This document shows positions 44,501-64,000 of a DNA stretch of 64,000 bases, in pieces (position 1 is the stretch's first letter; every line of letters begins with the position of its first letter). The stretch comes from Mitsuaria sp. PDC51 (GTDB lineage: Bacteria > Pseudomonadota > Gammaproteobacteria > Burkholderiales > Burkholderiaceae_C). The DNA lies in the NCBI RefSeq assembly GCF_900113225.1, contig NZ_FOZE01000001.1:1116001-1180000 (forward strand), given 5' to 3'. Position numbers and translations under genes: made by a program. The notes beneath the pieces were generated by a model. That model worked only from the letters and a program-made list of their open reading frames with translations. It made no database searches and was not told the DNA's origin.

Positions 44501-44878
44501 CCAGAGCAAGCTGGGTGGCTTCGTCAGCGCGTGCTGGCCGAGTCTCGGGAGCAACTGAACTTGGTTGGTGGACTACACGCGATGGCTGCGGTCGCCACGC
44601 TGCGATGGGGCCGTTCCATGTCGATGAACGCAAAGCAGTTGCCCGAGCTTTTCCCGAGCCTGTCTGTCGCACTTGCGCAAGACGCACTCGCGACGAAGGC
44701 CGACGCGGCTTGGTACTACGAGAGGATTGAGCCTCCCCAGTCCCACCTCCTGCTTGCCATCCAAGTGTTGGGTCGTTTCGGAACGGCCAACGACGTCTCC
44801 TCGCTCTACCCACACGTGGATGACGTCGATGTGGGCGAGGCGGCGCTCGATGCAATCCGAGACATCGAGGCCCGCTAG
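41540..44878 (+). CDS. NERD nuclease-domain / NACHT-like NTPase protein, candidate STAND defence protein
   Basis: In this 1112-residue protein, residues 20-140 form a NERD (nuclease-related) domain with catalytic-type residues QLDFV (Asp58) and VLVIEAKSY (Glu71, Lys73), a PD-(D/E)XK pattern. A P-loop NTPase follows: Walker A LLGPSGCGKSLL (256-263) and Walker B VLVCVDGYNEC (322-332), a NACHT-like form. The C-terminal 600 residues are helical and repeat-like, as in STAND sensors. Nuclease plus NTPase plus long sensor is the Avs-type layout of anti-phage proteins, although NERD as the effector is less usual. It starts with ATG 41540; the frame is intact. Confidence 0.75.
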   Translation: MSAPSASQRSSQVDVYIGAPIDVASEVEVYRHLLVALAGLPGPFAILANFEASGRQLDFVVCTPKGVLVIEAKSYRWPVTGKENGPWTVATQGGLILEMRNAYRQALDAKNAWKDAVGATASKASGYPDACVMAAFGWPEGSSVPTTEKVSKAIPGQLPELLQRGSQQRLTPKEVAAVAASLGLRRVAMHIDAVDEEMAAARSRIELYNEQFRIQHELMAAQLVDDQYELDGEARTRADVMNEVLKAPGQVVILLGPSGCGKSLLISRLAIDCIEVGFAPLLLQAQDFDGSLKDLIEREVGLLSGSSAKQFLSDVRRLRRPVLVCVDGYNECHEFRQERLTRAVRAFVRKVSSPCVVTSSGHLVRSDLLDGVTVNVKRPDNDLKVRIAQGACGTGDALNRLPNFLDAVGSGLEARLVGEVLAELGDGSSGFALFDTFVRKVLGEHAFEGIAFLARLAGVLAEDARFSTSVREADRLLQGVPTARALLNLLIAKRVLARRGDRMSFGHEQFLRAATAEWAARVRMTTAQTTLETLQSPRLAKSRQFLLGAIESKQLLQSVLPQVLDFELLRAADAGQCGAASQAWIRAKCDEIIARLQQEADVLTFERDGTGMTGVSCVVPNSPPWSEQDKVLLTLVTKAFCEGRYLSPVLDAVRRADAAILRMLASVGADLERIELIKLSEELFAEVVLFGGNEFSLSALISATAGGHHSIRAIYPVGLGEVRAAHWTGDKSLLETYVLLALLKRPAPAETGPLTDRLVDFFRKDWKRSPYHLKLQSLDLAEQMEVGDEARKRELLDAMGELKTNHPFLQHALTAAMYAQGAYDDVKWGDLDQLKAELKSLLAEPEDAEACAAAMRFYMQQFDSPFGDVHYQAWHDQSAEDIALLSAMACRGTTADKAAFCFPSSLIRRAVDAGPSPYVVETISPWLELPSEHSHGPQESLESLVVAHEAFGTMGLELPTVSWTALLPEPAKVALLACARLYYVSALPEQAGWLRQRVLAESREQLNLVGGLHAMAAVATLRWGRSMSMNAKQLPELFPSLSVALAQDALATKADAAWYYERIEPPQSHLLLAIQVLGRFGTANDVSSLYPHVDDVDVGEAALDAIRDIEAR

Positions 44879-45201
44879 CAGCAGGAACCGAGTAGGTTGC
44901 CCGTGGCTAAAGCAGTGAGAGACCGAGAACCACGCGGCCTCTCCCCGCTTCGAACGGCTTGGTCCCTTGCTGGCCACCGCCGCCGCCATGCATTGGCGGA
45001 TGCGTTGGCACTGCGCTCGAAATCATCGCAGTGCCTGACGCATAGCTCGGCCGAGCTACGAGCCTCCCAATCTCCTCGTTGCCTATCCCCTCTGGTCGAG
45101 GGGGTGAAGGCATAGGCGGCGTCTTTCTGAGGAGATTCACCATGTCGCCACCCCCAAGGACTCTGCCAACATAGTTCACGGGAGCGAAAAAGGAGAAGGC
45201 G
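44879..45201. other. Intergenic stretch with a perfect 16-bp palindrome
   Basis: No convincing gene is present. TAGCTCGGCCGAGCTA at 45043-45058 is a perfect palindrome. A good AAGGAGAAGG ribosome-binding sequence closes the region just before the NYN start. Confidence 0.5.
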
Positions 45202-45746
45202 ATGGCTGACTACATCTACGTGGACAACTCTAATCTCTACATCGAGGGACGGCGGGTCGCAGCCGTGAAGCATGGGCTTGTCCCGACGATTCGGGAGGCG
45301 CTGCCGACCCTGGGGTGTTCGACCACGCGTACACCATCAGCTTCGGAAAGCTGTACGAGTTCTTGGTGGGCAAGGACATTTCGAGCTTGAAGCGCGCGGC
45401 GCTCTTCGGCTCGCGCCCTCCGCCAAACGACTCAATCTGGGCAATTGCGGAGAGGGTCGGTTTTGAACTTCACCTTGAGGACCGCAATGTGCGGAACAAG
45501 GAGAAGAAGATTGATACCGGCATTGCTACACTGCTCACCAAAGATGCGTACAAGCATGGCGACCCAAAGGCCGATACCTTCGTGCTTGTCTCAGGCGATG
45601 CGGATTACGTCCCGACCATCAAGGAACTCAAAAAGGACGGGTATAAGGTGGAGGTTGTGTTCTGGAGCCATGCGGCCCGCGAACTCCGAGAGGAAGCTTC
45701 CAAGTTCATTGCCCTCGATGACTACCTTGAAGCCCTGCGGTTTTAA
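45202..45746 (+). pseudogene. NYN-domain (PIN-like) RNase-type protein, frameshifted in a G tract
   Basis: The first 37 or so codons read MADYIYVDNSNLYIEGRRVA, the NYN start with its catalytic Asp (VDNSN). After the four-G run at 45312-45315 the frame is lost and stops soon. Inserting one G restores a continuous 181-residue protein: VFDHAYTISFGKLYEFLVG, then DTGIATLLTKDAY and VLVSGDADYVPTIKEL with the conserved acidic residues. NYN proteins are metal-dependent RNases, often of the NicB/LabA-like type. The rest is clean, so the mutation is recent, a slippage variant, or a sequencing error. Confidence 0.75.
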
Positions 45747-46210
45747 CGTCGCAAAGGGCATGCGTGTCTGCGAGCAAGCGTCGGTTCTGGGGCGGGCCAT
45801 CCAGCGTAGGCGACGTTTGACTGAGGTCCCGTGCTCTGCGACAGCCGATGGACTCGCACGCTGGAGTTGGAGAAATCGACGCGAGGCGTGAGCTTTCCGC
45901 GTCAGATGCAATCCGGGCATAGAAGGACATCGTCGGGAAGCTTCAAATCAAGGGGTACCAGGTAGTAGGTGTTGAGGCTAGTTCCAGTCATTACAGGGTG
46001 GATGAGGCCTCCTAGCTATTCGTCCAAGGGAGGCGTTCAGCAGTACATGGGGCAACTCAAAGCTATTCCTGAGCAGGAACGCATGGAATGCATGAAGCAA
46101 GAGGTTCCCATCCGTCTGGGAAGTGAGTTGGGCCCGTCGCCAGCTATGCTCAGGCTTCGAACTGTCGCTGCGAAACGGACGCATTGTTCTGTGCAGCCTG
46201 AGGGAGAACC
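45747..46210. other. Intergenic stretch with a degenerate coding remnant
   Basis: On the plus strand around 45880-46010 a frame reads KDIVGKLQIKGYQVVGVEAS flanked by two TAG stops. It looks protein-like but has no intact start. No promoter was recognised for the next gene. Confidence 0.35.
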
Positions 46211-47293
46211 ATGAACCTGCAGACACTTGCGACGGCTGCGGACGTCGCAGTGGGCACGGCGCTGAAAGATTACAGCCTTATTGCCGGGTCGACCGAACCG
46301 TGTGAGGTCGCTCGGCTTGTTGCCCATATGCCGGCAATCCTGGCCACTCAGTGGTCGCCCTTTGTGGCGTCCGGGTCGATGACGGTGTCCGCCGTCTTCT
46401 GCCACAACATTCCTCGTGTGAGTTGGAAGTCTCTATTGCACTCAGCGACCAAGCCGTGCAAGCCGGAGCTAGCAGACCTCCTACTTATCTTGCAACGAGG
46501 CAGCGGCGTAAGCCGCGTTTCTCGGAGCTTGCTGGTTCAAGCCAAACGTGCCGAAGGCAATGACGTTTGTAAGCTCACTCAGGAAAGCGAGCTAATACAG
46601 CGCTACATGTATGCCAACTGGCCGTCGTTCGAGGTGCTAAATCCCCCCGCCAACGCTCCAAAGATTCCGACCCCTTTCGTTGTATGGCAGCCCACGTACT
46701 ACAGGTCAAAGCAAGCAAAGTATGCGGTGGTTAGGCCCAAGGGGACGTGCAATGAAGGATGGCGACTGGAGTCCGCGGTAGCCGCACTGCCGGTGAGCCC
46801 ATCCGCTTCCGCATTCACCGTACCTGATGGCGTGAGCGTCGGCGAATCCGACTCTCTGGGACTCGGCCTTGCCAAGTTGTACCAAGGGACCGAGGGGAGG
46901 CAATGCGACCTTGGCGATGACTGGTCGCAGCTAACCAATTACCTCGTGTGGTTCGCCTCGGACCGAATGAGCCAAGGCCTGCCCCTGTCTCACGTCGCTG
47001 GCGGCAAAGTGGTTGCTGGAGCGTCTCCCCCTCAAATCGCCGCTGCGACGTCTTACATGGCGCAGCATGCTCCGTTTCTCAAGTACACCGGAAATCATCA
47101 TCTGCTGCCTGGGATGGATGATTGGGTTCATCTGGACCGGGTACGAGACGGCTTCATATCGTGGCCACTGACGCCTCTCGAGCGCTTCATACAAGAACCC
47201 GTGCAAGGTTTCGGCGTGATTCGCATCGTCATCGACGACGACCTTCGCATCGACGACGTGGAGGCTCGGCGGCCGAGCTCTACGCCGTTATGA
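46211..47293 (+). CDS. Unknown protein with PD-(D/E)XK-like nuclease motif
   Basis: This is a 360-residue intact frame. Residues 86-112 contain ELADLLLI (Asp89) followed by SLLVQAKRA (Gln110-x-Lys112), the spacing and hydrophobic strands of a PD-(D/E)XK-type core with the Q-x-K variant. The middle (KIPTPFVVWQPTYYRSKQAK) and end (HHLLPGMDDWVHLDRVRDGF) are not recognised. No membrane segment or signal peptide is present. It lies between the NYN gene and the radical SAM gene. A nuclease role is inference from one motif. Confidence 0.5.
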   Translation: MNLQTLATAADVAVGTALKDYSLIAGSTEPCEVARLVAHMPAILATQWSPFVASGSMTVSAVFCHNIPRVSWKSLLHSATKPCKPELADLLLILQRGSGVSRVSRSLLVQAKRAEGNDVCKLTQESELIQRYMYANWPSFEVLNPPANAPKIPTPFVVWQPTYYRSKQAKYAVVRPKGTCNEGWRLESAVAALPVSPSASAFTVPDGVSVGESDSLGLGLAKLYQGTEGRQCDLGDDWSQLTNYLVWFASDRMSQGLPLSHVAGGKVVAGASPPQIAAATSYMAQHAPFLKYTGNHHLLPGMDDWVHLDRVRDGFISWPLTPLERFIQEPVQGFGVIRIVIDDDLRIDDVEARRPSSTPL

Positions 47294-47763
47294 CAAGCAA
47301 GAAGGGGCTGCATCACTAAGTTGCGACCCCAATGGCGTGCAACGAGGGCCAGCCTGCTTCGTCATGACTGTGTACCGACGGTCAACCTTTCCCTAGGCCG
47401 CCACGATGTCCTTCGTCTCGCCGTTGTGCGCGTAGTCGAGGTAGCCGTTGGCGCCGCCCATGTAGAAGAGCTCAGCGTTCCGCTGCCAGGGGCTAGTCGG
47501 TGCGGATGCGGTCCAAGCTCCAGATTCGAGACGAACAGACCGCCAACGAGACCAGGCCTACGTGCCCTTGGCAGTCGACTCCTCCGCTTCCGATGGCATG
47601 TAGCAGGTCATCAGCAGCGTGCCGCGATAGCTGGAGCGCAGCCACGGCGCGGGGTCATTGGACGCTGCCGCGGGCGCGCCTCTTCTCAATACGCTCGACA
47701 ACAACGAACGCTTGGCTGCTCGTGCGCGCGTTGATGCGGCTCAGCGAGCTCTCGCTCCCCCAG
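47294..47763 (-). pseudogene. Decayed minus-strand gene, unidentified
   Basis: This 470-bp stretch has no intact gene. On the minus strand, successive frames read SRINARTSSQAFVVVERIEK, then DPAPWLRSSYRGTLLMTCYM ending in a stop, then ELFYMGGANGYLDYAHNGET and a stop at about 47393. They fit one C-terminal region broken by at least two frameshifts, co-directional with the radical SAM gene. I do not recognise the family. Confidence 0.35.
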
Positions 47764-48882
47764 CTAGAACAGCGTCTGTTGGCCATCAGAACTTGCGCGA
47801 ACGGCCGGAGGAATCCGAAACAGGCTGGTGTCAACCGCCCCTGGCACCTTACTCAAACCAAACCTCTTCGCTGCAACGTTGAATCGTTGCCTCAGAAGTG
47901 CGGCATAGGGGCCGGTGCCACGCATCCGTGAACCGAAGGACGAGTCGTAGTCGACCCCGCCGCGCATTTGCCTCACGAGGCTCATCACGTGCTCGGCACG
48001 CAGAGGGAAGTGTTGGCGAAGCCACTCAACGAACAAGTCGCGAACTTCTAGTGGCAGCCTGAGCACAATCATGCTCGCGTAGGAGGCGCCTGCAGCGGCA
48101 GATGCTTCCAAGATTGACTCCAAGTCCGCATCGTTGATGCCAGGAATCATCGGCGATGCAAAGACGGCCACGGGTATGCCTGCCCGTGCCAGCTCTTGCA
48201 TGGCTCGCAAGCGCCGATGCGGTGCATTGGCACGAGGGTCCAGGATGCGAGCCAGGTCGGGAGTGACAGTGGCCAGCGAGATGTTCACCCTGGCTAGACC
48301 TCGCTCCGCCATCGGTCCCAGAATGTCGATGTCACGCGTGACCAGGGCTGACTTCGTCGTGATACTCACTGGGGCTTGGTGTTCAGCCAATACCTCCAGA
48401 ATGGACCGCGTGATGCGGAAGTCGCGTTCAATCGGCTGGTAGGGGTCCGTGCTGGCGCCAAGCGCGATGAGGCTAGGCTGGTACCCCTTGCGACCGAGCT
48501 CTTTCCGCAAGAGCTCGGCTGCGTTCGTCTTGGCGACGAGCTTGGTCTCGAAGTCGAGCCCTGGTGAAAGGCCGAGGTATGCGTGAGTCGGTCTTGCATA
48601 GCAGTACACGCAACCGTGCTCACAGCCAGCGTAGGGGTTGATGCTTTGGTCGAACGGAATATCCGGCGATGTGTTGTGGCTAATGATGGACCTCGCCTCG
48701 CGCGCCATCACTTCCGTTCTGACGCTCGGTTCGCTTAAAGGTCCTTCGCCGTCAATCAGACGCGCCTCGTCCAGGTGCTCCAGCGAGGGCTCGCGCTGCC
48801 AAGCTTCGAAACGTGAACGGGCGTTTGACCCGACGCCGCGGCCCTTGACGAACTGAACGATGGAGGAGGGTGTGTGGCCCAT
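47764..48882 (-). CDS. PA0069-family radical SAM protein, complete island-borne copy
   Basis: The radical SAM CX3CX2C motif (GCEHGCVYCYARP; Cys87, 91, 94) is complete, followed by the TDPYQPIERDFRITRSILE and VTPDLARILDPRANAPHRRL segments of this family. I chose ATG 48882 (MGHTPSSIVQFVKGRGVG, 372 residues) because AAGGA lies eight bases upstream; a longer frame would run through the LexA box at 48934. The reaction is unknown; family members use S-adenosylmethionine and a 4Fe-4S cluster and resemble SplB-like proteins. It appears to replace the host copy broken by the island, but codon choices differ, so it is not a recent duplicate. Confidence 0.88.
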   Translation of the reverse strand: MGHTPSSIVQFVKGRGVGSNARSRFEAWQREPSLEHLDEARLIDGEGPLSEPSVRTEVMAREARSIISHNTSPDIPFDQSINPYAGCEHGCVYCYARPTHAYLGLSPGLDFETKLVAKTNAAELLRKELGRKGYQPSLIALGASTDPYQPIERDFRITRSILEVLAEHQAPVSITTKSALVTRDIDILGPMAERGLARVNISLATVTPDLARILDPRANAPHRRLRAMQELARAGIPVAVFASPMIPGINDADLESILEASAAAGASYASMIVLRLPLEVRDLFVEWLRQHFPLRAEHVMSLVRQMRGGVDYDSSFGSRMRGTGPYAALLRQRFNVAAKRFGLSKVPGAVDTSLFRIPPAVRASSDGQQTLF

Positions 48883-48933
48883 GGCGCCATTCCTTGTCGC
48901 GCGGAGTGGGGACTCCGCACGCCTGCAAGATTT

Positions 48934-48949
48934 CTGTATAAATATACAG
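48934..48949 (-). promoter_or_regulatory. LexA (SOS) box before the island radical SAM gene
   Basis: CTGTATAAATATACAG is a perfect CTGT-N8-ACAG palindromic core, 52 bases upstream of the chosen start. The AT-rich centre also contains a TATA-type -10. Confidence 0.85.
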
Positions 48950-49025
48950 TAGTTCATGGATTCCGCCACGCGGCTCGCCGACGCCTAGTGCACTGGCCGC
49001 AACTGCAGCTGCTCTTCTGCCCGTG

Positions 49026-49454
49026 TCAAACCCCGGACAACTTTGGCTTGGGCACCACTTGCAAGCTTCGGCGGCGCTGGGCAGATGTTGAGGCGCCTCG
49101 GTCCATCCCATCTGCGCTTCGTCCCCTGCTCAGATTCCAGCGGCGAATCAAATCGTCTGCTGCTGCGTGACGGCGCTCCACTTCTTGCTGAAAGTCACGG
49201 CGCTCTTGTGCGGCCGCCAAAACCTTCGCTCTGGCGGTACTAGCTCTCGCGCGCACCGCCTCTCGGATTTCCGTTTGCAGAGCGACATAAGCAGTCCGCC
49301 TTCCGCTGAGTACATCCCTCGAGAAACCTGCTCGGCGTGCCACGGACGATATGCCTAACCGCGCCTTAGGTTCTGCTTGAATGGCGTTAAAAGCTTCCCG
49401 CAGAAGGCGTTCGGTTTCCGCGACATAGCCCCATTGTTGACGTCGAGCCTTCAT
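49026..49454 (-). CDS. Small accessory protein of the recombinase operon (TnpC-like position)
   Basis: This 142-residue, Arg-rich protein has a helix-turn-helix-like segment (LGISSVARRAGFSRDVLSGR) and a long charged helix (residues 60-105). Its ATG overlaps the stop of the 772-residue recombinase, so it is the last gene of a four-gene operon. Tn554-type elements encode a small TnpC at the same position that biases orientation and efficiency of integration; the similarity is positional. Confidence 0.6.
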   Translation of the reverse strand: MKARRQQWGYVAETERLLREAFNAIQAEPKARLGISSVARRAGFSRDVLSGRRTAYVALQTEIREAVRARASTARAKVLAAAQERRDFQQEVERRHAAADDLIRRWNLSRGRSADGMDRGASTSAQRRRSLQVVPKPKLSGV

Positions 49455-51769
49455 GCCGCCGCGTCCTTAAGCCAAAGAACTACTTTTCGGGCCTGTTCGC
49501 GTTGCGAAAACAGAACATGGAACTCCCGCGCGTCCCCATCAATATGGCGGTCAGCTCGGTCTACCCAATATGTGCGATGGCTCGGGTCAATGGCGAAGCA
49601 GCCGCATCCGGCACAGAGCGCTGGTGTTCGGTATTCAAAAGCAGGCTCGTCCCACAGCCATCCCGTATGCTCGGCGGCCTCGTTGCAGCGTGACTCGAGG
49701 GGCTTAGCTTTAATGAAGCACATTCCATATCGAGTGAAATAAATGGTCAACTCGTGAAGCAGAACGGTGGCCTTGATTGCAATATATCGCTCGCGTCGAG
49801 TGCTTGCGTTAGCCCAGGCTTCACTATTCACCATCGCGTCAATCGCAGCCGCCATTCTTCCGACAAGGACGACGTTTCCGTCCATCACTTCTTCAAAAAC
49901 GCGGATAGTGTTGGCCGTAGTCTCAGAATTGACCTCCCTTTTCAATCGTGCAACTGCGGCGAAATACGATGCTTCAGTTACTGTCGTGTTGAGGTGATGA
50001 AAGTGTCGACTAACGGGAAGCAGCAAGCTCCGGCGAGAGTCAAGCATAAACGCCGAAAAGGTCTTCCGCCCCTGATGTGAGGTGATGCATCTTCCCCTGG
50101 TCGCAATGTAGGGGGTTAAGTCTTCCCCATGCGCTCCTCTCTGTGGGAGGCCCGTGAGGTCGACCTCATGATGCACAAAGCGACGTAAGCCCAACACCAG
50201 ATTTCCAGAGAATGCATCGACGGTCAAATCTTCGTCGTAGGGCAAGGAGTTCATGTTGGAGAACTGCTGGAACAGTCCATACTCCTGACAGTCGCCCTTC
50301 CAAGGTAGGAATAGTTCGTGCAGAAGTCGAATTGCTCGAAGAGGTATGGGCTCAAAATCGGAGCCTACGGGACGACATCCAATAACCCATTCGGTCTCAA
50401 TTGGAATGTCACGGCCTTTCGTGATGAATCCTTTTACAAAGAAAATCTCAAGAATTCCCGAGCGAGAAGTTCTCTTTTCCACACAGCCGAAAAGCAATCC
50501 GCTTTGGTTTCGTACCCGAATAGATTTGTACTCGGATATTCGAAGGCCAACGAGATAGTTTAGTAGTACAAAGGCTGCATCACGTAGCGTGAGGATAAGG
50601 CGTCTGACTTGCCTCAGTGGCCCAAGCTGAACTGGAATCAACTTCGCGGGGTTGGTCGTAGGTGTCTCCATGGAGACGGATTCGAGGCCCTCACGCCAGG
50701 GGCTGACTTGACCAGTAAGTACCGAAAACTCGAAAGCGCGCAGCGCCTTGTTGAGTTGCGTGTAGTACTTCGTAGTACGCAAGCCATGTTCCTTCGCAAG
50801 GCGAGTGCGTTCCATCAAAACCAGGTCGCGCAATCGAAGGACGTCGGGTGCTTTATCGTCAAGCCATGTAAGAGCCTCAGTCAGCAACGGCAGAGCGACC
50901 TCGTCAGGCAGTGGGGGCGTAATTTCTCGGACAATTCTGGATACCGGCTCCGCCACTTTCTTTGCCGACAGACCGTCGAATGGCTGCGAAAGCATGAATG
51001 GAATTCCGAATTCTTCGAAGTCGAGACGTTGCGAATAAATCTGATGAATGGTGCTAATTCTCAAATAGACTTGGTTAAATGAGGGTTGACGGTTTTCCTC
51101 ATTCTCAGCAACGTTTTGCGCAACGATGGAATCATCAATCTGTTCGACGCTCACTGTTTCGTTGCCGTCTTCGTCCCTCACGTCGTCATTGACGTACTCA
51201 TCCTCGCCGCCCGTTTCTTCATCGAATGTGGGCGTTGCCTGTTCGTCGAACTCATCGACCCCCGCGCTTTCGTAAGCGAGTTCGATATCAGCCATCTCTC
51301 GGAGTTCGGTGACCTTCTTTCGACCCTCCTGCGGTCCGGGACGGTAGTTCACTGGGTGAAGAATCTCAGACGGCAGGTCTGCCAAGTACGCATCGCACAC
51401 TTCCGGAGTTAGTTCGGAGAAGTCACGAATGTTGTTGGTCGCCATCCACCGTAACATCGCGCGCGCGCCGATGAGGAACGCAGGGATTGAACGTACGGAA
51501 AAATCATAGGATTGCTGATTACGATTCGCCAGCAGGCTAGCCAAGAGAGCCTTGAAGCATTCGATTAGTTCTGGGTACTGTTCAGACGTAATGCCCGGGG
51601 CGATGACAAACGACCAGTGAGCCGGAATCCGAACTTCTCCAGTGGGCAGGAAACGGGAGAAGTACCAACTCATTGAGTCCCAGGGGGAGCAAAGTACATC
51701 GCGTAGGGCTTGCCCCAACGTCCGTTGGTAATCGTAGCTGCCGGCTCTTTGCAGTGCGTTTAGTTTCAT
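49451..51769 (-). CDS. Large tyrosine-recombinase-like protein (third of trio)
   Basis: This 772-residue protein has a tyrosine-recombinase core in its second half: LVGLRISEY (Arg), VKGFITKGRDIPIE (Lys), ITSHQGRKTFSAFM (HxxR box) and SRHFHHLNTTVTEASYF (His, then candidate Tyr). The C-terminus has a Cys cluster (RCNEAAEH..., ALCAGCGCF) that may bind zinc. An acidic stretch lies near residues 155-210. It overlaps the upstream recombinase gene by four bases (ATGA). Confidence 0.75.
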   Translation of the reverse strand: MKLNALQRAGSYDYQRTLGQALRDVLCSPWDSMSWYFSRFLPTGEVRIPAHWSFVIAPGITSEQYPELIECFKALLASLLANRNQQSYDFSVRSIPAFLIGARAMLRWMATNNIRDFSELTPEVCDAYLADLPSEILHPVNYRPGPQEGRKKVTELREMADIELAYESAGVDEFDEQATPTFDEETGGEDEYVNDDVRDEDGNETVSVEQIDDSIVAQNVAENEENRQPSFNQVYLRISTIHQIYSQRLDFEEFGIPFMLSQPFDGLSAKKVAEPVSRIVREITPPLPDEVALPLLTEALTWLDDKAPDVLRLRDLVLMERTRLAKEHGLRTTKYYTQLNKALRAFEFSVLTGQVSPWREGLESVSMETPTTNPAKLIPVQLGPLRQVRRLILTLRDAAFVLLNYLVGLRISEYKSIRVRNQSGLLFGCVEKRTSRSGILEIFFVKGFITKGRDIPIETEWVIGCRPVGSDFEPIPLRAIRLLHELFLPWKGDCQEYGLFQQFSNMNSLPYDEDLTVDAFSGNLVLGLRRFVHHEVDLTGLPQRGAHGEDLTPYIATRGRCITSHQGRKTFSAFMLDSRRSLLLPVSRHFHHLNTTVTEASYFAAVARLKREVNSETTANTIRVFEEVMDGNVVLVGRMAAAIDAMVNSEAWANASTRRERYIAIKATVLLHELTIYFTRYGMCFIKAKPLESRCNEAAEHTGWLWDEPAFEYRTPALCAGCGCFAIDPSHRTYWVDRADRHIDGDAREFHVLFSQREQARKVVLWLKDAAA

Positions 51770-53655
51770 GTTAAACGTCCCAGGTCATTGACGTTCAGCA
51801 GACGAGCCGCTTCGATGCATTCGTCCGAGAACAGGTTTAACCAATACTCATCCAGTCGCTTTGCAACGGGACTGAATACCTTTGCCCAACGCTCATACTC
51901 CATGTAGTCAAATGCGTCGGTTATCTCGTTTCTAAGTTGGACTGCTCGGGCGAAGCAGTAAGGCGAATCCGTGTCGAGAACTGAGTGAGGGCAAGCGGGG
52001 CATTCGCCAAAGGCATCGCAAAGGCGCCCGGGCTTTTGCCCGGGACGCGGCGAATTGAAGCAGTCGAGGCAGTTCCATCCTGGCGTTGCAGCGAGTAAAT
52101 CTTCGCTGAGGTTGTTTCCTCGCTGATGGATGCGCCCGTTGGACGTAATCCACCGAGACTGATTAGCCATTGCTTCGCCCAACTGCTGGGACCTTATAAG
52201 TTTGGCGTCCTCCCCCTCGTAATGGTCTTTGATTACTGCTTCAGTGCTCGTGCCCGAGGCAACTTTATGCGCGAGTAGGTCATCACCGGAACGTTCACGA
52301 ATAACGTGCAGGCCGGTTAAGCGAAGCTCCTTGATAACGAAATGCGGCAGACTGTGAACCCTGCAGAAGTCCTTTGCTGCTGAAAGCCAGTGTCCACATG
52401 CTTCCGTTTTCTTGCCAGGCATTGACGATGCACTGAATGGAAATACGTTTCCCCAGTTATTCACGAAAATGAAGGTGAATTCTCGATAATCTCCCGCCAA
52501 TCTTCGAATCCTGCGTGTCCAATGAATAATGAACTCCACGATGGCGTTCGGAGATAGAATGTCCTCTCGGTCAATCGGAAACGACCGGGTGTAATCACTT
52601 CCGCGAGGCTTGCTCAAGTACCAAGCCACGCGTTGACCGCCGAAACCTTCAATTTCTGCGATGTCATTAATCCGCAGTGTCCGCAGGGAACCAGTGTTGG
52701 CCTGCGAGTAGATGTACAGAAGGAGGACAAATGGAAACAGGGAGCGAGCTGTCGGTTGGAAGCACAGGCTCGCGCGATAAATGCTTATGTGTTCCTTAAT
52801 TGCGTTCGTGAGGTCGCCAGGCCATTCCGCCTGCATCTCGCGGATGGTGGGAATAATGTCGGGGTGGCGATTCTTGAGGCCCCATAGAACGGCTGGGAAG
52901 TTGTTGCGGAATCTGCCTGAGCCCGCGCGATTTTCGTCAGGTGCGATAAAATCGCCTTCCAGAATGTTCCATGATTCATAGCAAGTGGTAATCGTCTCCG
53001 TCACTTCTTCGACAGCGGCATCGTAAATCTTCAGCCAAAGTTCATCTGACAGTCGCTTGGTTCGCTTTCCATGCTCTTCTGCATCGGGAAACGGAATCCT
53101 TGGAAGCTTTAGTTTGGGGCTGAGTAAATGGCTGCATCGTGCATTTCCGCGCAAGGCATCAATTAGTGCCTTGAAGTAGAGGTATTGGCGTCTTGCAGTG
53201 TTGTATGCACGAGGCCCTTCACCCAGGCTAGATATTGCCCGCTTCTTAAGCTTTCTATCTGCAGTCTTCAACCAGTCAACTAAGGCGTTCACCCATTTGG
53301 TGTCAATTTCCGTCGACTGGATTTGGAGATAATCGTGTGCTTCCATGAACTCAAAGACACCATTCTGAAGGCCTCCTACAAAGTTTGAAAATTGACGGTG
53401 GTTTTTACGTTTGGACTTTGGGTCGTTCGCCCATAGCACGTATCCCTGCAGCCAGAAATCGGACGTGGGCCATTCCTGAACTGTGTTGCGCAGAATCTCG
53501 AGCTGCTGCAAGAAGCTTGGCGCCAGCGAAGGATCTCCCGTATAGGACGTAAGCGATGCATCAACGCTGGGGAGCGTATCCCGAGCAGCAACGACCTCCC
53601 AAGCAGCCGCAGAGAGTTGGTCGTAATGAGTAGGTCGTTTAGGACGACGTGACAT
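51766..53655 (-). CDS. Divergent tyrosine-recombinase-like protein (second of trio, TnpB-like)
   Basis: This 629-residue protein is close in size to Tn554 TnpB (about 630). The core is recognisable but altered: ANTGSLRTLRIND (Arg), WYLSKPRGSDYTR (Lys), FVIKELRLTGLHVIRE where the usual HxLR His is replaced, and STEAVIKDHYEG with the candidate nucleophile Tyr. A C-terminal Cys-rich module follows (NCLDCFNSP, CDAFGECPACPHS, YC). The altered box suggests a structural or accessory role. It starts eight bases after the first recombinase. Confidence 0.72.
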   Translation of the reverse strand: MSRRPKRPTHYDQLSAAAWEVVAARDTLPSVDASLTSYTGDPSLAPSFLQQLEILRNTVQEWPTSDFWLQGYVLWANDPKSKRKNHRQFSNFVGGLQNGVFEFMEAHDYLQIQSTEIDTKWVNALVDWLKTADRKLKKRAISSLGEGPRAYNTARRQYLYFKALIDALRGNARCSHLLSPKLKLPRIPFPDAEEHGKRTKRLSDELWLKIYDAAVEEVTETITTCYESWNILEGDFIAPDENRAGSGRFRNNFPAVLWGLKNRHPDIIPTIREMQAEWPGDLTNAIKEHISIYRASLCFQPTARSLFPFVLLLYIYSQANTGSLRTLRINDIAEIEGFGGQRVAWYLSKPRGSDYTRSFPIDREDILSPNAIVEFIIHWTRRIRRLAGDYREFTFIFVNNWGNVFPFSASSMPGKKTEACGHWLSAAKDFCRVHSLPHFVIKELRLTGLHVIRERSGDDLLAHKVASGTSTEAVIKDHYEGEDAKLIRSQQLGEAMANQSRWITSNGRIHQRGNNLSEDLLAATPGWNCLDCFNSPRPGQKPGRLCDAFGECPACPHSVLDTDSPYCFARAVQLRNEITDAFDYMEYERWAKVFSPVAKRLDEYWLNLFSDECIEAARLLNVNDLGRLT

Positions 53656-53663
53656 ATTGGAGT

Positions 53664-54959
53664 TCAGTTTTTTGCGCCGCCGCGGCGAGTTTTAAAACTT
53701 TCCAAGAAATCGTCGCTTACTATTGCTTCGTATGCATTGATATGTGCGAGGTAAATTTTCAGCGTTGTTTCTATGCTGGCGTGCCGAAGTTGTTCGGAAA
53801 CGTACTTCCACGGTTCTGCATCCGTCCACCGACGGGCGAGATAGGTCCAGAATGCAAAGGTATGTCGCAAGTCGTGAAAGACGTATTTGGGGCATTTGCG
53901 TTTCCGCGGGGTGCTTTCGTATCTGCCATCATCTCCAATTGCAAAGTACTCTTCTTCCCGCAGAACGCCAAGGGCAATACAGGCTTCAGAAAAACGTTTC
54001 TCAAGAGTCCTCGTTGTACATTGGCGACCCATAAGGCTCGGTCCGTAGTGCGGCGGATTTACTAGCACCGTATCGCATCTTGGATTACAGCAAGCCCTTT
54101 CGCCGCGGACGTACGCAGCAATTTGGAGAAGCAACGCTCCTGAGAAATTGGTCGGCAGTGTCTTGCCGCCTTTTCCCTTGATATCTACCGGATAAAGTTT
54201 CGTGGCGACAATATTCTCGATGTCGTCGAGATACTTCTGCACGGCACCCAGTTTCAAGCGTGTGCATTCAAAGACTCGCAAGCCTGCATTAAGTGCCATC
54301 TCTGCAGCTAGTCTGTCTTTTGCGCTAGGTGGAAGTGACTTGGAGACGCCTTGTCCAAAGTCCTTCCACGCCTGCTCGTGCTTGGTAGGGCGTTCGCCCA
54401 GCTTCTTGAATATTTCCTTGGCTTCATCCTTCAGTAGTCCTTTTATTCGATAGGCATCTTGCTTACTGGAGCAATCCGGCCATTTGAAGTATCTAGCGCC
54501 CCTACTCGTAGAGGCCTTCTGCAGCAGTAACTCGTCGTTACTATCGTCCCATTTGCAGAAGTGGACTCTTGCTGCCCACCTATAGAGGTTCGAGACTGTG
54601 GATACGCGGCGCTTCATTGTTTGTTCCGAATGGAACTTCGCGGTTTTTGGAGCGATGGTGATTGCCATTGCGTGGATGTATCCCGCCACATGAGACTCGG
54701 TAGCCTCCGACCAGTCCAACTCCACATGTTCTAGATAGGTGAACCAACCCTTAAGGTCGTTTGCTAGGTTTGTTACTGAGTACTCCTTATCCGCATAGTT
54801 GATTTTTGCGCGAACAAACGTTTCGTACAAAAAAACTACGGCGGGCTCGCATAGGAGGTCAGACGAGGCATCGCTCAATACCGGAAATCCCTCCGGCAAG
54901 AGCGAAGAGGGAAGGGGGCGATGGCAACGTGTTAACTGCCAGTCGATGGAGGCGGCCAC
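53664..54959 (-). CDS. Tyrosine recombinase/integrase (first of trio, probable catalytic subunit)
   Basis: This 431-residue protein has all catalytic positions: Arg228 (LNAGLRVFECTRL), Lys in the DIKGKGGKTLP turn, His362 and Arg365 (FHDLRHTFAFW), His393 (QLRHASIETTLK) and Tyr403 (LKIYLAH). An N-terminal SAM-like core-binding domain (residues 35-130) is present. A Cys pair (CCNPRC) lies in the insert. It heads the operon of three recombinase-like genes plus a small gene. It is expected to cut and join the island ends at the radical SAM att site. Confidence 0.85.
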   Translation of the reverse strand: MAASIDWQLTRCHRPLPSSLLPEGFPVLSDASSDLLCEPAVVFLYETFVRAKINYADKEYSVTNLANDLKGWFTYLEHVELDWSEATESHVAGYIHAMAITIAPKTAKFHSEQTMKRRVSTVSNLYRWAARVHFCKWDDSNDELLLQKASTSRGARYFKWPDCSSKQDAYRIKGLLKDEAKEIFKKLGERPTKHEQAWKDFGQGVSKSLPPSAKDRLAAEMALNAGLRVFECTRLKLGAVQKYLDDIENIVATKLYPVDIKGKGGKTLPTNFSGALLLQIAAYVRGERACCNPRCDTVLVNPPHYGPSLMGRQCTTRTLEKRFSEACIALGVLREEEYFAIGDDGRYESTPRKRKCPKYVFHDLRHTFAFWTYLARRWTDAEPWKYVSEQLRHASIETTLKIYLAHINAYEAIVSDDFLESFKTRRGGAKN

Positions 54960-55055
54960 GAGGTCGGTCGAGATGTGAAAGGCGCCGAATGTGCCACCCG
55001 AAACTCAATGGTGCAAACCCCTTTTATCACTTCAAGAAAATGTGAATTCCTTCAA

Positions 55056-55077
55056 TGGATACAGTTGCTGTAATCCA
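55056..55077. promoter_or_regulatory. Imperfect palindrome between recombinase operon and divergent ORF
   Basis: TGGATACAG and CTGTAATCCA flank a three-base centre, giving arms that match except for one bulged base. It sits 97 bases upstream of the recombinase start, in an AT-rich divergent region, and is a candidate operator for control of excision. Confidence 0.4.
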
Positions 55078-55232
55078 TCCACTTGATTTGCAATGCTGAA
55101 GTTGAATACCGTTCTGGTCGGGCTATGCAAAAGGTGGATACCAGGGGTCTTCTGCGTTTTTTTACTTGCTCTGAACTCGACGATGGTGTTAGCGTCAGAC
55201 CATTCCTACTTGGCTTGGGCAAGTTTTCAGTC

Positions 55233-55952
55233 ATGAGCAATGACGTATCGAATCAGGTGTCGCACTCCGACGGCCATGCCGATACAGCGGCGGAAGAGGA
55301 GTCGCGCGACGAGCTTGAGATGGATGTGCTAGCGGTCTACACAACGGCAGATGGGGCTTTGCATTGGGGCCCTCGTTTTGACCTTACTTCCGAGGTTTAC
55401 GGGTCGGATGTTGGTTGGTCGGTCACCGAGAGAAACCATCGCTTTCAGTGCATTGGAGGCGAAAGCGTTGAGCACCATCTTGTCTCGAGAGAGTCGTTGA
55501 TTTGCCTCGCAGCACGAGCCGCAGAGGAGCTCTGGTCGTATCAGAGCGAATGGGAGCAGGACGGGCCGGAGGTTTCCTGGCTACTCATTGAGGTTCGTTA
55601 CGGTGAGGAGATTGCCGTCCGAATTGAGGCATGTGTCCAATCTGGGAATTGGTCTTGCGAGGCTTGGTCATTCTCGGACCATATGAGAGCGGTGCTCGAC
55701 TTGGTTCCTCCGCCAGGAAGAATTGAGGTTAGTCAGCTGGTGATGCGGATTCTGAGGTTGCTGGCATTTGCAGGCCCAACTCCTCCTCCGTTGCGCATGA
55801 GTGACCCCAAGCGTGCGTTACCTTTGCCCTGGGAGTACGCCTCCGAGATTCCTCCCATGGATTCCCCGCTTCGGGCCAGCTATTCCGACTATTGGGGTGG
55901 TTATACCGACCTCTTCGAATTCTTTGACCAAGAGCTTCGTCGGGTGCGTTGA
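55233..55952 (+). CDS. Unknown acidic protein
   Basis: This soluble, acidic protein of 239 residues has no motif I recognise. The segment LICLAARAAEELWSYQSEWE is amphipathic, and a Pro-rich stretch lies near residues 180-210. The frame opens at 55083, but the ATG at 55233 (MSNDVSNQVSHSDGHADTAA) is preferred because the earlier codons run through the divergent promoter region. It is divergent from the recombinase operon and the first of three co-directional small genes. Confidence 0.55.
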   Translation: MSNDVSNQVSHSDGHADTAAEEESRDELEMDVLAVYTTADGALHWGPRFDLTSEVYGSDVGWSVTERNHRFQCIGGESVEHHLVSRESLICLAARAAEELWSYQSEWEQDGPEVSWLLIEVRYGEEIAVRIEACVQSGNWSCEAWSFSDHMRAVLDLVPPPGRIEVSQLVMRILRLLAFAGPTPPPLRMSDPKRALPLPWEYASEIPPMDSPLRASYSDYWGGYTDLFEFFDQELRRVR

Positions 55953-56067
55953 GGCAGATGAGTCGCTCGATACACTGCCGACGCATATTTGCGAATTTGC
56001 TGTGCACAACTTCCATGCCCCCAGCGGCCAGTGTTTCAAAGCGGGGTTCTTGTGAACTGGAGTACTG

Positions 56068-56430
56068 ATGTCCAAGAGTTATGGGCGCGCGGTTCCCTTT
56101 CGGCGTGCGGATGAAGCGTATGAGCGTTTGCTTCAGGCAGTAGAAGGCGGCTTAGAAGAGGGTAGAGAGCCGGTGATATCGTTTGGTCGGAAGATGATTT
56201 GGGGAGGTGAGCAAACTGAGCTTGCCGCGTTTGGCCCCGTCATCGCGGCGGATATGGAAGCTTGCTTGGCAGCGGCTGGGCAACTCCAACGGCCGATTTG
56301 GCGCGTGTCGAACGCGCTTCTAGCTCGTGCAGTTGCTGTGGGTAGCGACTACTACGTCGATACGGAGCCTGGCGAGGTGGTCGCGAACTCAGGAGGGGCT
56401 AGAGGGCCGATGAACCATGAAGGACAGTGA
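56068..56430 (+). CDS. Unknown 120-residue protein
   Basis: This small soluble protein starts MSKSYGRAVPFRRADEAYER, with alternating helix and strand. It has no signal peptide or recognised domain. The last 14 bases overlap the next gene, suggesting coupled translation. Coding appearance is good, but the function is unknown. Confidence 0.55.
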   Translation: MSKSYGRAVPFRRADEAYERLLQAVEGGLEEGREPVISFGRKMIWGGEQTELAAFGPVIAADMEACLAAAGQLQRPIWRVSNALLARAVAVGSDYYVDTEPGEVVANSGGARGPMNHEGQ

Positions 56431-56839
56431 TGAACCGCACCCGCTGAGTCCGGCGCGGGCGCCCATGAAGCGCCAGGAACCTAGCGTTGAGCAGGTCGAG
56501 GCGCGCCGCCGAGAGCGGGAGGCGGAGCAATTGGCGTGGGCTGAGCGTGCCCGTGCTGCCCAACAGCCAGCAAGGGAGGCGCTAGAGCTGTTGTTGTCGC
56601 TGGCGGAGCGGTCGGACACAGGGCAGGCCCGCCGCGCGGCAACGTTCGTTGCGGCCGTGGCTGGATATCAGCACTTCGACATGTACTCGCTGCGGAGTCT
56701 CGATGTCGAGTTGTCTGACGCCATGCTTGCTTGTCTTGATGGGGTACGTTGGGCTCAATGCCCTTTGATGGACCTTGTTCCACGCGGGCGCGCTCGTATC
56801 GACCAGGTGTGCGTCGATTGGGGTTTCAAAGCTCCCTGA
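56417..56839 (+). CDS. Unknown 140-residue protein, integrative-element cargo type
   Basis: Residues 20-60 form a charged helix (EQVEARRREREAEQLAWAER), then EALELLLSLAERSDTGQARR and YQHFDMYSLRSLDVELSDAM. I have an impression that similar small proteins accompany integrative elements in Burkholderiales, but I cannot name the family with certainty. It overlaps the preceding gene by 14 bases. Confidence 0.5.
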   Translation: MKDSDEPHPLSPARAPMKRQEPSVEQVEARRREREAEQLAWAERARAAQQPAREALELLLSLAERSDTGQARRAATFVAAVAGYQHFDMYSLRSLDVELSDAMLACLDGVRWAQCPLMDLVPRGRARIDQVCVDWGFKAP

Positions 56840-57034
56840 CGAGGATGGAACATGGCGTAGGCGATGGCCACCTTGTCCGCGGCAGCAGTCAATATCGAGC
56901 GGCGTAGTTGCACCATGGTTTGTCGCTCACGTCTCGCTGGAGACTTGCGCAGAACCTTGTTGGTAGGGCATCAACTAGGTAGCGCCGATTGGCGGGCGCC
57001 CAGACTGTCCTCGCTCGGATAAGTTCTTGGCCGT

Positions 57035-58318
57035 CTAGTACAGCCGTTGCCCGGCGGTGAGCGGTAGTAGGTCTTCTGAGTACGCTTGGGCGCCGGTGTA
57101 CTTGTTCAATGTCTCTGGCCGGATGGCCCCAGGATGGCGGAGGAACGACGACGCGCCAACGTACTTGAGAAGCGACGCTCGTAGCGCTCGTTTGTAGGTC
57201 GGATTCATGTGTTCCAGCAGTGCGTACCGGCGCAAATAGACTTTGAAGCGATGTCCCGCCGGCGTCGCAGCGTTAGCGGCCAACAGAAGCACCGCGTCCT
57301 CACTGACCATCCCTCGCGCAATTTTTGCGTAGCGCTCTTTCTCGATTCGCGACATCGGCGATTGGTCGATGAGCTTGAATGTCTGATAGAGCGTGCGGAA
57401 GTACGGCCCGAAGCTGCCGGAGTTTGGCAGATAGATGTAGTTGTGGAAGAACGTAGATACCAACCGCAGCCGGTCCTCTTCGGGCACTGCTGCGCCATTC
57501 GCCGCGGAGAACTCCATGAGGGCTACCGCCCAAGCTGAGAGAGCATCCGAGCCGCGCACTTCGGGCGGCATTTGGAACGGACGTTCGGACCGCGTGGAGC
57601 GGTCTCGCACGTACTTCGTTCGCCGATTCAGAGGGGGCCGCCTTGCGAAGATGGAGGCGGGCTCTTTGACCTCGCGCTTGAAGCGGCTCTCAAGCTCCCG
57701 CGTCAACGTCAGCAACTCGAAGAATGTCGTTTCGAAGGCCTGCCGAGCATTCACCTTTCTTGCTTCTATCAACGACCGTCGCTGCAGCCAGCCCGCCCAG
57801 ATGAGCAGCGCACCGGCGATGGCTGAGAAGAGAGCGTTCGCCCCGCCGAAGGCGTCACCTGCCTGTCCAAGCTCTGACAAGCGCGAAGGTGGTTCCGTTG
57901 GGGCCTTGGGTAGCTCAGGCAGTTCGACACGGATAGCGACACTGCTTTGGCTTGCCACTTTGCCGGCCTCGCCATTCTTAGGCATGGGAATCTCTACAAC
58001 ATACGCTTTGGCGTCAGGCGCAGCGGGGGCTCCCGAGCCAGGAACGGCCTCAGGTGCTGTGCCTTCAGACAACATCTTTCCTCGCACAAACGCCGCGCCC
58101 CAAGCAACCCACCCGCACCAGATGAACGCGGCGACTGCGATGGCCAGTATCGGTACGAGGCCGGACAACCAGTCTCGCTTGTCCGTGGCGTCGGCCGGAC
58201 GCGGCTGAGTCCTTCGTCGAATGAATCGAGCGAGCGGTCCAGGTACCGGCAGCGGAGGAGTCTTCGTCGCCTTGCCCTTGGGTCTAGTGGGCAAACTGTC
58301 GCTGCTGCTTGTTTTCAT
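57035..58318 (-). CDS. PutAbiC-like membrane abortive-infection protein
   Basis: This 427-residue protein has two membrane helices (about residues 51-76 and 158-177) separated by a Pro/Ala-rich periplasmic loop. A cytoplasmic domain follows with ETTFFELLTLTRELESRF, GSFGPYFRTLYQTFKLID and IEKERYAKIARGMVSEDAVL, the conserved blocks of the putative phage abortive infection (PutAbiC) family. The family was named from lactococcal Abi proteins; its mechanism is unknown. It lies alone, 136 bp downstream of the Lamassu-like pair on the same strand. Confidence 0.75.
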   Translation of the reverse strand: MKTSSSDSLPTRPKGKATKTPPLPVPGPLARFIRRRTQPRPADATDKRDWLSGLVPILAIAVAAFIWCGWVAWGAAFVRGKMLSEGTAPEAVPGSGAPAAPDAKAYVVEIPMPKNGEAGKVASQSSVAIRVELPELPKAPTEPPSRLSELGQAGDAFGGANALFSAIAGALLIWAGWLQRRSLIEARKVNARQAFETTFFELLTLTRELESRFKREVKEPASIFARRPPLNRRTKYVRDRSTRSERPFQMPPEVRGSDALSAWAVALMEFSAANGAAVPEEDRLRLVSTFFHNYIYLPNSGSFGPYFRTLYQTFKLIDQSPMSRIEKERYAKIARGMVSEDAVLLLAANAATPAGHRFKVYLRRYALLEHMNPTYKRALRASLLKYVGASSFLRHPGAIRPETLNKYTGAQAYSEDLLPLTAGQRLY

Positions 58319-58454
58319 ATCTCTCCCTCGGACGGATTTAGCTCTTAGCGAATCGTCCGTCGGTCCGCCCGAAGCATGGACTAAGGGGAAATTTACGAGG
58401 TAGCGACGTCAAGCGCGCAGACCTCGGCTCCGGACCTCGTGGCACCGCTCTCGG

Positions 58455-60161
58455 TCAACTCCGGCTTTGGGCCAATGTTGCCTCGTACATCTTGGACAGC
58501 AGCGGTTCCACCAGAGCGTTGGTGTCGTCCCAATGCGCCTCGGTAAGCATTCCGAACTTCTCGGTCAGTGTCTCCGCGCGGTCGAACACAAAGTCAGTCG
58601 GAGTCTCCAGACCAACGATGAGTTGTGTTCCGGCGGGAAGCTCGTTCGCGATGAACTGCAGGACGGCTGGTAGGTTAATGTCGTCCTGAGCCTGCTGGTT
58701 GGGGGAGTCAATGACGATGGGAATGTCGTAGCTCCCCTGGTCGCCTTGAACCGTCCGCCAGATGGCTGCGTAATAGGCGAGGATGGACCTTGGGCCGCCA
58801 CTTCCCGATAGGGAGGGGCGAGAGGCCAGTTGGAGCGTCTTGGTCGGTACGGCGTGCAGTTGCAGTGCGATGCGGCTTGCAACGTAGTGCTCCCGGAACT
58901 TCGTCAAAATTGCCTTGGTGCGCTTTACTGAGCGAAGCTCTGCCATCTTTGTCTCGAGTGCTTCCACCGTAAGAACCACCGCGTCGATGGCCGCCTGTAT
59001 CTGTTTGCGTTCCGCCTCGAAGGCCGCGAATGCGGACTCGGCACCGAGGCTACCGACCACATCCTTAAACTTCAGCTCGCCCTTGCGAGAATCCAGAAGG
59101 CGGGAGATGCGCAGATAGTTCTCATTGAGCGTACTCAATTCAGAGAACGCCTTGTGCGTGCGTCTGCGGACCTCTGCCGCATCCTCCCGAAGTCGTGCCG
59201 CTAGCTCCCGCAGAACACGGGCGTCCTCAGCAAATTCGAGCAAGTCGATGAATGGCTTCTCGTGCTCCGCGTGACATGTCGGGCAGATGAGCGGTGCGGC
59301 ACCCTCCTTGAGAAGGTACTTTGTGTCGCTGTCGTACGCAGCCAAGGCTCCTTCGGCGAGGTGAATCTGATGGTCAAGGCTCTTCAGGAGCTCCTGCTCA
59401 CGGACGGCCGTGCTCCTCAGTCCTTCTTGCCGGACGTTGAGCTCATTGACCTCCCGCGTAAGCTGCTCAATCTCTGCGACAAAGTTCTCCGGGGCAACTT
59501 TGGGGCCGGACAACGGGATGGATTTGCTGAAGCGCTCTATGGCGCGCTCGAGCAGCTTGTACTCACGCCGATGTTCCTCGAGCGTCTTAGAGTGCTGCGA
59601 CTTCTCAGCGCTTGCCGAGTAGTACTCCGGTGGGCAGACCCCAGTGAAGTACTCCAGGATGGGCTTGAAAGGTGCGCTGAAACGCTTCATGCCGCCGAAT
59701 GTGTTCCATTCGGCCTGCCAGCTACCGTCCTGGTTAACGTAGAACGGGGCGAAGAAGCAGGCGGGGTCGGCCGGGACCACTTCTGCCTGCTTCTTATCGG
59801 AGAACACCAAGTTGAAGTCCGTGACTTCGCAGAAGCGCTTAGACCATTCTCCGAACTTCGAAGTGGAGATTAGGAGGTTGAATTGCCCGTCGAAGAGCGC
59901 ACGTCGACCATCTTGATGAAGCGCGAAGTAGCTCTTCCCGTCAACGCCGAACTCAAGCAGAGAAACTGCGTTCTCGTCCCATTGTTCGAGCTTTCCTTGC
60001 GGCGTGGCGCCGAGCGTTTCAAACAGGCTCCGAATTAGCGTCGTCTTGCCCGTGTGGTTCCTCCCCACCAGCAAGTTCTTGCTCGGATGAAACTCCACGT
60101 GCCGCGCCTTCTTCTCTCGGTGAGAGAGCAGCCAGATGTTTTTGAATCGGAAGCGATGCAT
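58455..60161 (-). CDS. Zinc-hook SMC/Rad50-like ATPase, LmuB-like
   Basis: This 568-residue protein has Walker A VGRNHTGKTTL (residues 33-40) and a coiled coil broken by a CPTC zinc hook at 293-296. A second coil, the ABC signature LSGSGGP (451-457) and Walker B PIVIDSPNQQ (481-490) follow, with DSP as in ABC-3C/Lamassu ATPases. It starts 33 bp after the DUF4297-like gene. In Lamassu systems the SMC-like ATPase senses foreign DNA and releases the nuclease subunit. The short coils make it compact for the family. Confidence 0.8.
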   Translation of the reverse strand: MHRFRFKNIWLLSHREKKARHVEFHPSKNLLVGRNHTGKTTLIRSLFETLGATPQGKLEQWDENAVSLLEFGVDGKSYFALHQDGRRALFDGQFNLLISTSKFGEWSKRFCEVTDFNLVFSDKKQAEVVPADPACFFAPFYVNQDGSWQAEWNTFGGMKRFSAPFKPILEYFTGVCPPEYYSASAEKSQHSKTLEEHRREYKLLERAIERFSKSIPLSGPKVAPENFVAEIEQLTREVNELNVRQEGLRSTAVREQELLKSLDHQIHLAEGALAAYDSDTKYLLKEGAAPLICPTCHAEHEKPFIDLLEFAEDARVLRELAARLREDAAEVRRRTHKAFSELSTLNENYLRISRLLDSRKGELKFKDVVGSLGAESAFAAFEAERKQIQAAIDAVVLTVEALETKMAELRSVKRTKAILTKFREHYVASRIALQLHAVPTKTLQLASRPSLSGSGGPRSILAYYAAIWRTVQGDQGSYDIPIVIDSPNQQAQDDINLPAVLQFIANELPAGTQLIVGLETPTDFVFDRAETLTEKFGMLTEAHWDDTNALVEPLLSKMYEATLAQSRS

Positions 60162-60194
60162 AGTCTTTTGTTCTCAGGCTTCGGACGAGCAGTC

Positions 60195-62782: not shown

Positions 62783-62842
62783 GTTTACTCGCTGTGATGT
62801 TCTACTTCGTTCAAACGCATTTCTCCGTCGCAATTCACGACC

Positions 62843-63142: not shown

Positions 63143-63191
63143 CGCGAGGTGCAAGCGAAGGGCTCAACCAAGAGCTGGACTAGCGTTGTCT

Positions 63192-63947: not shown

Positions 63948-64000
63948 AGGGCGGAGCCTACCTTGCCTACCGGGCTGACTTCACCCCCGAAACGTGCGGA

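Follow-up and report, generated by a model that had tools for sequence, protein, structure and literature searches.

The window analysed here, a 64,000-nucleotide stretch of the genome of Mitsuaria sp. PDC51 (contig NZ_FOZE01000001.1, positions 1,116,001 to 1,180,000), holds four minus-strand genes of 431, 629, 772 and 142 codons that are packed at positions 54959-49026. We call them intA, tfp-like, intB-like and srap-like, and their products IntA, Tfp, IntB and Srap, after the genes of the SE family of integrative elements; as we argue below, they probably form the core of an SE-like element that sits in a radical S-adenosylmethionine (radical-SAM) gene of the host. Between intA and the tfp-like gene there are 8 bp, and the two junctions that follow are 4-bp overlaps. 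An earlier reading of the same DNA, made from the sequence alone and referred to here as the original prediction, had the coordinates, the lengths and the tight packing of the four genes right (Table 1). Rfam and tRNA searches of the window gave no match.

Table 1. Features of the window and of the element that continues beyond it.
Feature	Position	Strand	Basis or remark
intA, tyrosine recombinase, 431 aa, full catalytic set	53664..54959	-	Pfam, alignment, SE profile
tfp-like, tyrosine-recombinase fold, 629 aa, catalytically incomplete, C-terminal 4-Cys cluster	51766..53655	-	profiles, AlphaFold, Foldseek
intB-like, large tyrosine recombinase, 772 aa, full catalytic set and 3 conserved Cys	49451..51769	-	profile, residues
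srap-like small protein, 142 aa	49026..49454	-	profile of 10 family members
Native radical-SAM gene, 5' part, split	38990..39277	+	85% identical to residues 1-100 of the intact gene of a genus-mate
Element end C at attL, TTATGCGAACGCAGAATGTGTGGAGCA	39279..39305	+	21/27 inverted match to right end
Integrated element, window part	39279..64000	.	right end ~77519 (window-extended), 38.2 kb, C' and 6-bp spacer TACACG
Intact radical-SAM gene, PA0069 family, element-borne	47764..48882	-	NF033668, 473.7 bits (cut-off 360)
Native radical-SAM gene, 3' part, beyond the window	77516-78355, window-extended (= L032:13516-14355)		residues 100-379, 95% identical to the genus-mate
Defence-type gene, N-terminal match to CBASS-effector / SAVED-HNH models	39617..41263	-	padloc, best E 5e-21; no Pfam match
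NERD-NACHT STAND-type protein	41540..44878	+	Pfam NERD E 6e-9, NACHT E 1e-4, below cut-off; weak padloc matches only
Lamassu LmuB and LmuA	58455..61370	-	padloc, 934 and 534 bits

Among the four operon proteins, Pfam calls a tyrosine recombinase for the first only (PF00589, E 1.4e-9; PF02899, E 3.2e-6), and a Protein Data Bank sequence search with IntA gave no match. Family alignments, from which near-duplicates and sequences beyond set length limits were left out, kept 21 of 36 IntA, 23 of 28 Tfp, 24 of 39 IntB and 10 of 12 Srap sequences. The IntA catalytic residues R228, K263, H362xxR365, H393 and Y403 are each present in 21/21 aligned members, as expected of a protein that had been credited with a full R-K-HxxR-H-Y set. 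IntB keeps this set too, with R410 in 23/24 members (the remaining one has a gap), K451 in 24/24, H565 in 22/24 and R568, H592 and Y602 in 24/24 each; the claim that the first protein alone is complete was therefore wrong and, given its residues, IntB should be catalytically competent. The variant HxxR box previously seen in the third protein exists as a sequence, HQGR, but it is no defect, the spacing of H565-Q-G-R568 being canonical. Tfp has Arg in 0/23 members at the Arg-I column (a column picked by eye), Tyr in 9/23 at the Tyr column and, as predicted, no box His (0/23); K349 and R445 (Arg-II) are kept in 23/23. The predicted Cys clusters of both larger proteins are likewise conserved, at positions 529/546/552/555 in 23/23 Tfp and 684/719/722 in 24/24 IntB sequences. 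The IntB-like protein (encoded at 49451-51769) also has a long acidic insert at residues ~140-235, which the protein of a carrier genome described below (G220) shares in part and those of Methylomonas and Sphingobium lack.

For IntB the evidence for the fold comes from profiles and motifs. For Tfp, an AlphaFold model was built from 15 sequences (predicted local distance difference test, pLDDT, 75.7; predicted template-modelling score, pTM, 0.56). Its best Foldseek match is XerH 5jk0 (E 1.2e-4); the five matches below 1e-3 are all XerH, and XerA, lambda integrase and Cre come next, above 1e-3. Query-normalised TM-scores are low, at about 0.33, so the fold match covers part of the Tfp model only. 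XerH is one of the templates given by the SE authors for their own Tfp (PMC10214605). Deep profiles link intA with tfp at E 5.9e-9 and intB with tfp at E 3e-9, and a third fold link stands at E 4e-8; the underlying alignments were made with MAFFT, which strips gaps, and some input rows possibly came from gapped alignment files. With four-sequence profiles, Tfp and IntB gave no match to IntA, and NCBIfam contained no family for Tfp and gave weak, meaningless matches for IntB. The description of the operon as one of three tyrosine recombinases is thus upheld at the level of the fold, by the profile links and the resemblance of the Tfp model to XerH, and fails in the count of catalytic sets, which are two and not one.

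As a sequence reference for SEs we used one element, the published SE-Pda04Ya311 of plasmid pAQU1, which we take to be the element that lies behind traN there and has the four genes and a GMA-1 gene. Our family profiles match its proteins one-to-one (IntA, E 4.8e-11; Tfp, 8.9e-6; IntB, 3.7e-8; Srap, 1.4e-6, over 43 residues), and none of the 12 off-diagonal pairs falls below E 0.03. Four-sequence profiles still matched at E 2e-8 for IntA, 6e-4 for Tfp and 3e-4 for IntB. By BLAST, tblastn with the SE Tfp listed no match at 1e-4 among the loci fetched by then, and the SE Srap was the best query in 3/36 loci among the matches listed, at E 0.002-0.003. The gene order intA-tfp-intB-srap is that of SEs, as are the catalytic IntA and IntB, the incomplete Tfp with its XerH-like fold, and the imperfect inverted ends, 6-bp spacer pattern and lower G+C content of the element (PMC9345347, PMC10214605). 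Judged by protein profiles, the SE family, which the original prediction did not mention, is the closest tested relative of the operon.

Three other systems have to be compared, two of which, Tn554 and the gamma-mobile-trio islands, are those that the original prediction likened the operon to. GInts (ginABCD islands, Tn6571 family) also have three recombinase-fold proteins and one small protein, and they are site-specific, cargo-bearing islands with short att repeats that occur in Alpha-, Beta- and Gammaproteobacteria and in other phyla (PMC5385486); ginC-ginD blocks were reported from 69 betaproteobacterial replicons, or 2.5% (PMC10214605). However, in GInts it is GinA and GinB that are catalytic and the third protein, GinC, that is incomplete, being without the first Arg (PMC5385486). 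The window operon does not follow this pattern: its incomplete protein is the second, as in SEs, and its proteins match those of an SE one-to-one. Having read the likeness to GInts from descriptions, we regard a GInt as quite improbable here. Tn554 (TnpA, TnpB, TnpC) shares a 6-bp footprint, as told in PMC10214605, but according to the same source has no counterpart of the second gene, whereas the window operon has its Tfp-like gene; it is set apart by description. The gamma-mobile-trio islands (Mahata et al. 2024, as cited in PMC12715929) are similar in being mobile islands rich in defence cargo, and no NCBIfam model named GmtX, GmtY or GmtZ matched the window proteins or the SE and related proteins that were scanned.

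An IntB scan of named genomes found at least 36 relatives. In 29/36 of these, among the matches listed, intA, tfp and intB stand in order on one strand, which provides the co-conservation whose lack would, by its own terms, have refuted the original prediction; the other seven (L075, L078, L079, L080, L093, L095 and L096) are without at least one of the three, and several of them lie at a contig end or have a short tfp. By organism name, we take 18 of the 36 listed relatives to be Betaproteobacteria and 11 Alphaproteobacteria, with 7 others or unplaced. Further relatives are found on plasmids of Sphingobium, Novosphingobium, Methylomonas and others, and a further group of operons occurs in Rubrivivax, Roseateles, Piscinibacter and related Burkholderiales (L085-L100). 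Tfp relatives, of any target, were seen in 8/200 family genomes, the source genome included; a single-sequence scan of genome contigs with Tfp gave no relatives. A srap-like gene was detected by BLAST in 8/36 loci, among the matches listed, and a plasmid search with the small protein gave no match; from its sequence the Srap-like protein seems to diverge fast. According to the SE survey, homologues of Tfp or Srap are missing from Alpha- and Betaproteobacteria (PMC10214605). The window element, which on profile evidence is SE-like and distant in sequence, lies outside the published SE host range.

A cargo-free relative is on the Methylomonas plasmid pUP202 (L010:7468-13617), where the four genes stand alone in an insertion of ~6.1 kb between traU and traN. 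M. koyamae pFW12EY (L035) has an empty site at the matching place. A 13-bp inverted repeat in pUP202 was ruled out as terminal by this empty site, which puts the right end ~90 bp further out.

In the window, codon composition shifts near 39 kb, third-position G+C of the genes of the plain strand being ~0.9-0.97 before and 0.55-0.75 after this point, and the G+C of the element is lower than that of the host, as in SEs. A local inverted-repeat search around the operon yielded no convincing ends; these were located once a split gene had been seen. The native target is a PA0069-family radical-SAM gene that is intact in 5/5 genus-mates translated and is cut here in the CxxxCxxC region, within the codons for GCEHGC and ahead of the CIYC motif. 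Neither this split nor the island with its second copy had been noticed in the original prediction. At the left junction the arm, the spacer and C read CTGCG-AGCATG-TTATGCGAACGCAGAATGTGTGGAGCA, the 6 bp AGCATG before C being target codons. The right junction has C' (reversed) TTACACGAACCAAAAATATGTGGAGCA, then the spacer TACACG and then GCTGCATCTACTGC. The two halves of attB are retained in attL and attR.

A split native gene together with an extra copy was present in 4/4 carriers examined: the source genome (G000), a genome of another genus (G220), Paraburkholderia lacunae (G311) and Burkholderia sp. Bp9143 (G312). These four, which represent at least two genera, were found via the operon or the copy and are a non-random sample. 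The cut site and the element start are identical in all of them. In G220 the element measures 43.3 kb, intA adjoins C and the native gene is split at the same base. In P. lacunae and Bp9143 the 5' radical-SAM piece lies before intA, and the 3' piece and the intact copy adjoin each other; all three parts are on one contig in Bp9143 (~47 kb end to end) and are spread over two contigs in P. lacunae. C and C' match at 21/27 positions in the window element and at 19, 17 and 17 of 27 in the other three, levels reached by 0, 0, 0 and 1 of 10,000 letter shuffles for the four elements (we set the register by eye, and the spacer may be off by 1 bp). SEs are described as yielding a circular copy of one strand with no empty site left behind; the 6 bp at attL derive from the target, and those at attR come from this circle (PMC10214605). 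In all four elements the attL 6 bp are target codons (AGCATG/AACACG), and the attR 6 bp differ from one element to the next (TACACG, GTATCG, GCTCTG and TCGATG), as this rule predicts; the attR 6 bp would then have come from the circle. The junction pattern GGNTGYGARCAYGTTATGYGA was found in 2/399 family genomes, both known carriers, and in 1/399 order genomes, the source genome, with 0 hits of a reversed-pattern control in the listed rows. With the junction confined to these few genomes, all of them known carriers, the insertion is rare.

The intact radical-SAM gene borne by the element lies directly downstream of the srap-like gene; its start at 48882 is our choice, the longest open reading frame beginning at 48969. 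Its nearest relative, at 64% identity, is the copy in G220, which adjoins the same four genes. In each of the four copies CIYC is replaced by CVYC, and neither arm is identical to that of the target. In a tree of radical-SAM genes, from which identical sequences were dropped and in which the copies of G220, G311 and G312 were told apart by coordinates, the four copies and one gene each of two further genomes, G139 and G305, form a clade with a support of 0.99. This clade is apart from the native genes, among which the disrupted natives fall. The G139 and G305 genes may be relics or the origin of the carried copies. That a split gene and an extra copy came about by unrelated accidents in a plasticity region, for which one could point to the many unrelated defence genes around them, is something to which we give hardly any credence, as four genomes from at least two genera share the cut base, the end sequence and an extra copy belonging to one clade, even though the four are not a random sample.

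The homology of the four genes, the partial fold match of Tfp, the split gene, the exact junctions, the inverted ends, the spacer pattern and the extra copy in four genomes are observed directly. From them we consider it probable, at roughly 0.86, that these genes make up the core of an SE-like integrative element with a split radical-SAM target, a carried copy of the target gene and defence cargo. IntA, IntB, the incomplete Tfp and a Srap-like helper would recognise C and C', the imperfect inverted ends, together with a target of ~20 bp, namely the stretch of a PA0069-family radical-SAM gene in which the iron-sulfur CxxxCxxC motif is encoded. A circular copy would be joined into this target, placing the target's 6 bp next to C (attL) and the circle's 6 bp next to C' (attR), and would cut the gene in two; the carried intact copy, diverged and altered at the target site, probably restores function and may be a poor target. 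We infer the circular copy-out intermediate, the strand bias, the functional replacement by the copy and its protection from re-targeting, and the window element itself would have arrived by such movement. The single integration complex originally proposed survives as one integration machinery, supported by co-conservation, SE profile matches and defined att sites. The element differs from described SEs in that most listed relatives bear names from outside Gammaproteobacteria, its proteins are distantly similar, its target is a radical-SAM gene and its operon is displaced.

Several observations weigh against this interpretation. The SE sequence reference is a single element, and with four sequences the Srap profile did not match the SE Srap significantly (E 0.024). 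The ends of the Methylomonas element show no clear C/C' repeats, and this poor match means that not every relative fits the C/C' rule. In trees of IntB, Tfp and IntA rooted on one SE, the four operons form a clade with supports of 0.58, 0.55 and 0.99, low in two of the three. G139 and G305 (L058 and L059) gave no IntB match and have, in addition to their copy-clade radical-SAM gene, a native gene that looks intact (the G305 genome is 88% complete). What speaks for a circular form or for movement is drawn from DNA sequence. Finally, the window operon has no contact with C: intA is 15.7 kb away and reversed, while in G220, G311 and G312 it adjoins C, so that the SE feature of an operon at the C end is seen in the other three elements and not in the window.

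This displacement may reflect a rearrangement, probably the inversion of a 15.7-kb segment with the operon in the window copy; inverting 39.3-55.2 kb would restore the usual layout. The only hint of breakpoints is a weak 32-bp inverted repeat (39337-39368 and 55191-55222), a further point on the negative side, with a score of 30 against a best of 28 in 200 shuffles, the shuffles of a similar test having reached 32. A comparison of the subterminal sequences of the other elements with those of the window, made with the inversion in mind, gave no match. In the SE work, intA and intB mutants were not complementable, from which its authors inferred the importance of having the operon intact and at the C end (PMC10214605); by analogy, the window copy may be immobile. 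An operon that is internal and reversed could also belong to a composite island. The radical-SAM gene would then have been entered first by an older element, since deprived of its operon, within which a second SE-like element that includes the copy (~39.3-55.2 kb) is now nested. Yet neither strand of the island contains an internal match to the end motif TTATGYGA, the IntA, IntB and Tfp of the operon group with those of elements in the same gene, and the radical-SAM copy beside it is in the same clade as the copies of the other elements. A composite is the main rival but, in our estimation, unlikely, and a single, rearranged SE-like element remains the reading that we prefer.

The cargo of the element is largely anti-phage defence. 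Besides the genes of Table 1, the island holds an Mrr-type enzyme and an AbiP-like protein, as well as a type III-A retron-like pair of a phosphoribosyltransferase (PRTase) and a reverse transcriptase (L032:4886-7563). The SRAP domain of Pfam, which stands for SOS-response-associated peptidase and is distinct from the SE protein Srap, is encoded by a gene of the island at L032:2076-2876. Beside intA, at 55083-55952, there is an orphan open reading frame of 289 aa that is present in 1/299 family genomes, this one being the source genome.

The principle of an element that replaces the gene it has broken is not new: SE-6283, inserted in bcp, brings a homologue of bcp with it (PMC9345347). The lineage, the hosts, the radical-SAM target and the repeated pattern are new as far as the literature searched shows. 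Searches for PA0069 with radical SAM found no literature, and those combining radical SAM, integration site, genomic island and tyrosine recombinase found nothing related, while one for strand-biased circularizing with Burkholderia listed a single paper, with subscription journals, preprints and supplements outside their range. A more far-reaching proposal, which we put forward tentatively and with slightly more doubt than belief, is that an SE-like lineage persists outside Gammaproteobacteria by breaking one conserved host enzyme gene at its best conserved codons and supplying a site-altered substitute, as the four carriers seen all do, so that the host would depend on the element and the substitute could not be hit, with no toxin or antitoxin involved.

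These findings extend a little-known class of mobile DNA, which one survey had called Gammaproteobacteria-only, to Beta- and Alphaproteobacteria, and they delimit four elements exactly, all of them in the same target. Beside bcp, the radical-SAM gene is a second case in which an element may replace the gene broken by its insertion. The window element also links SE-like elements to defence islands. The pUP202 element of ~6.1 kb, in turn, offers a cargo-free natural system of two catalytic recombinases, one degenerate recombinase and one small protein.

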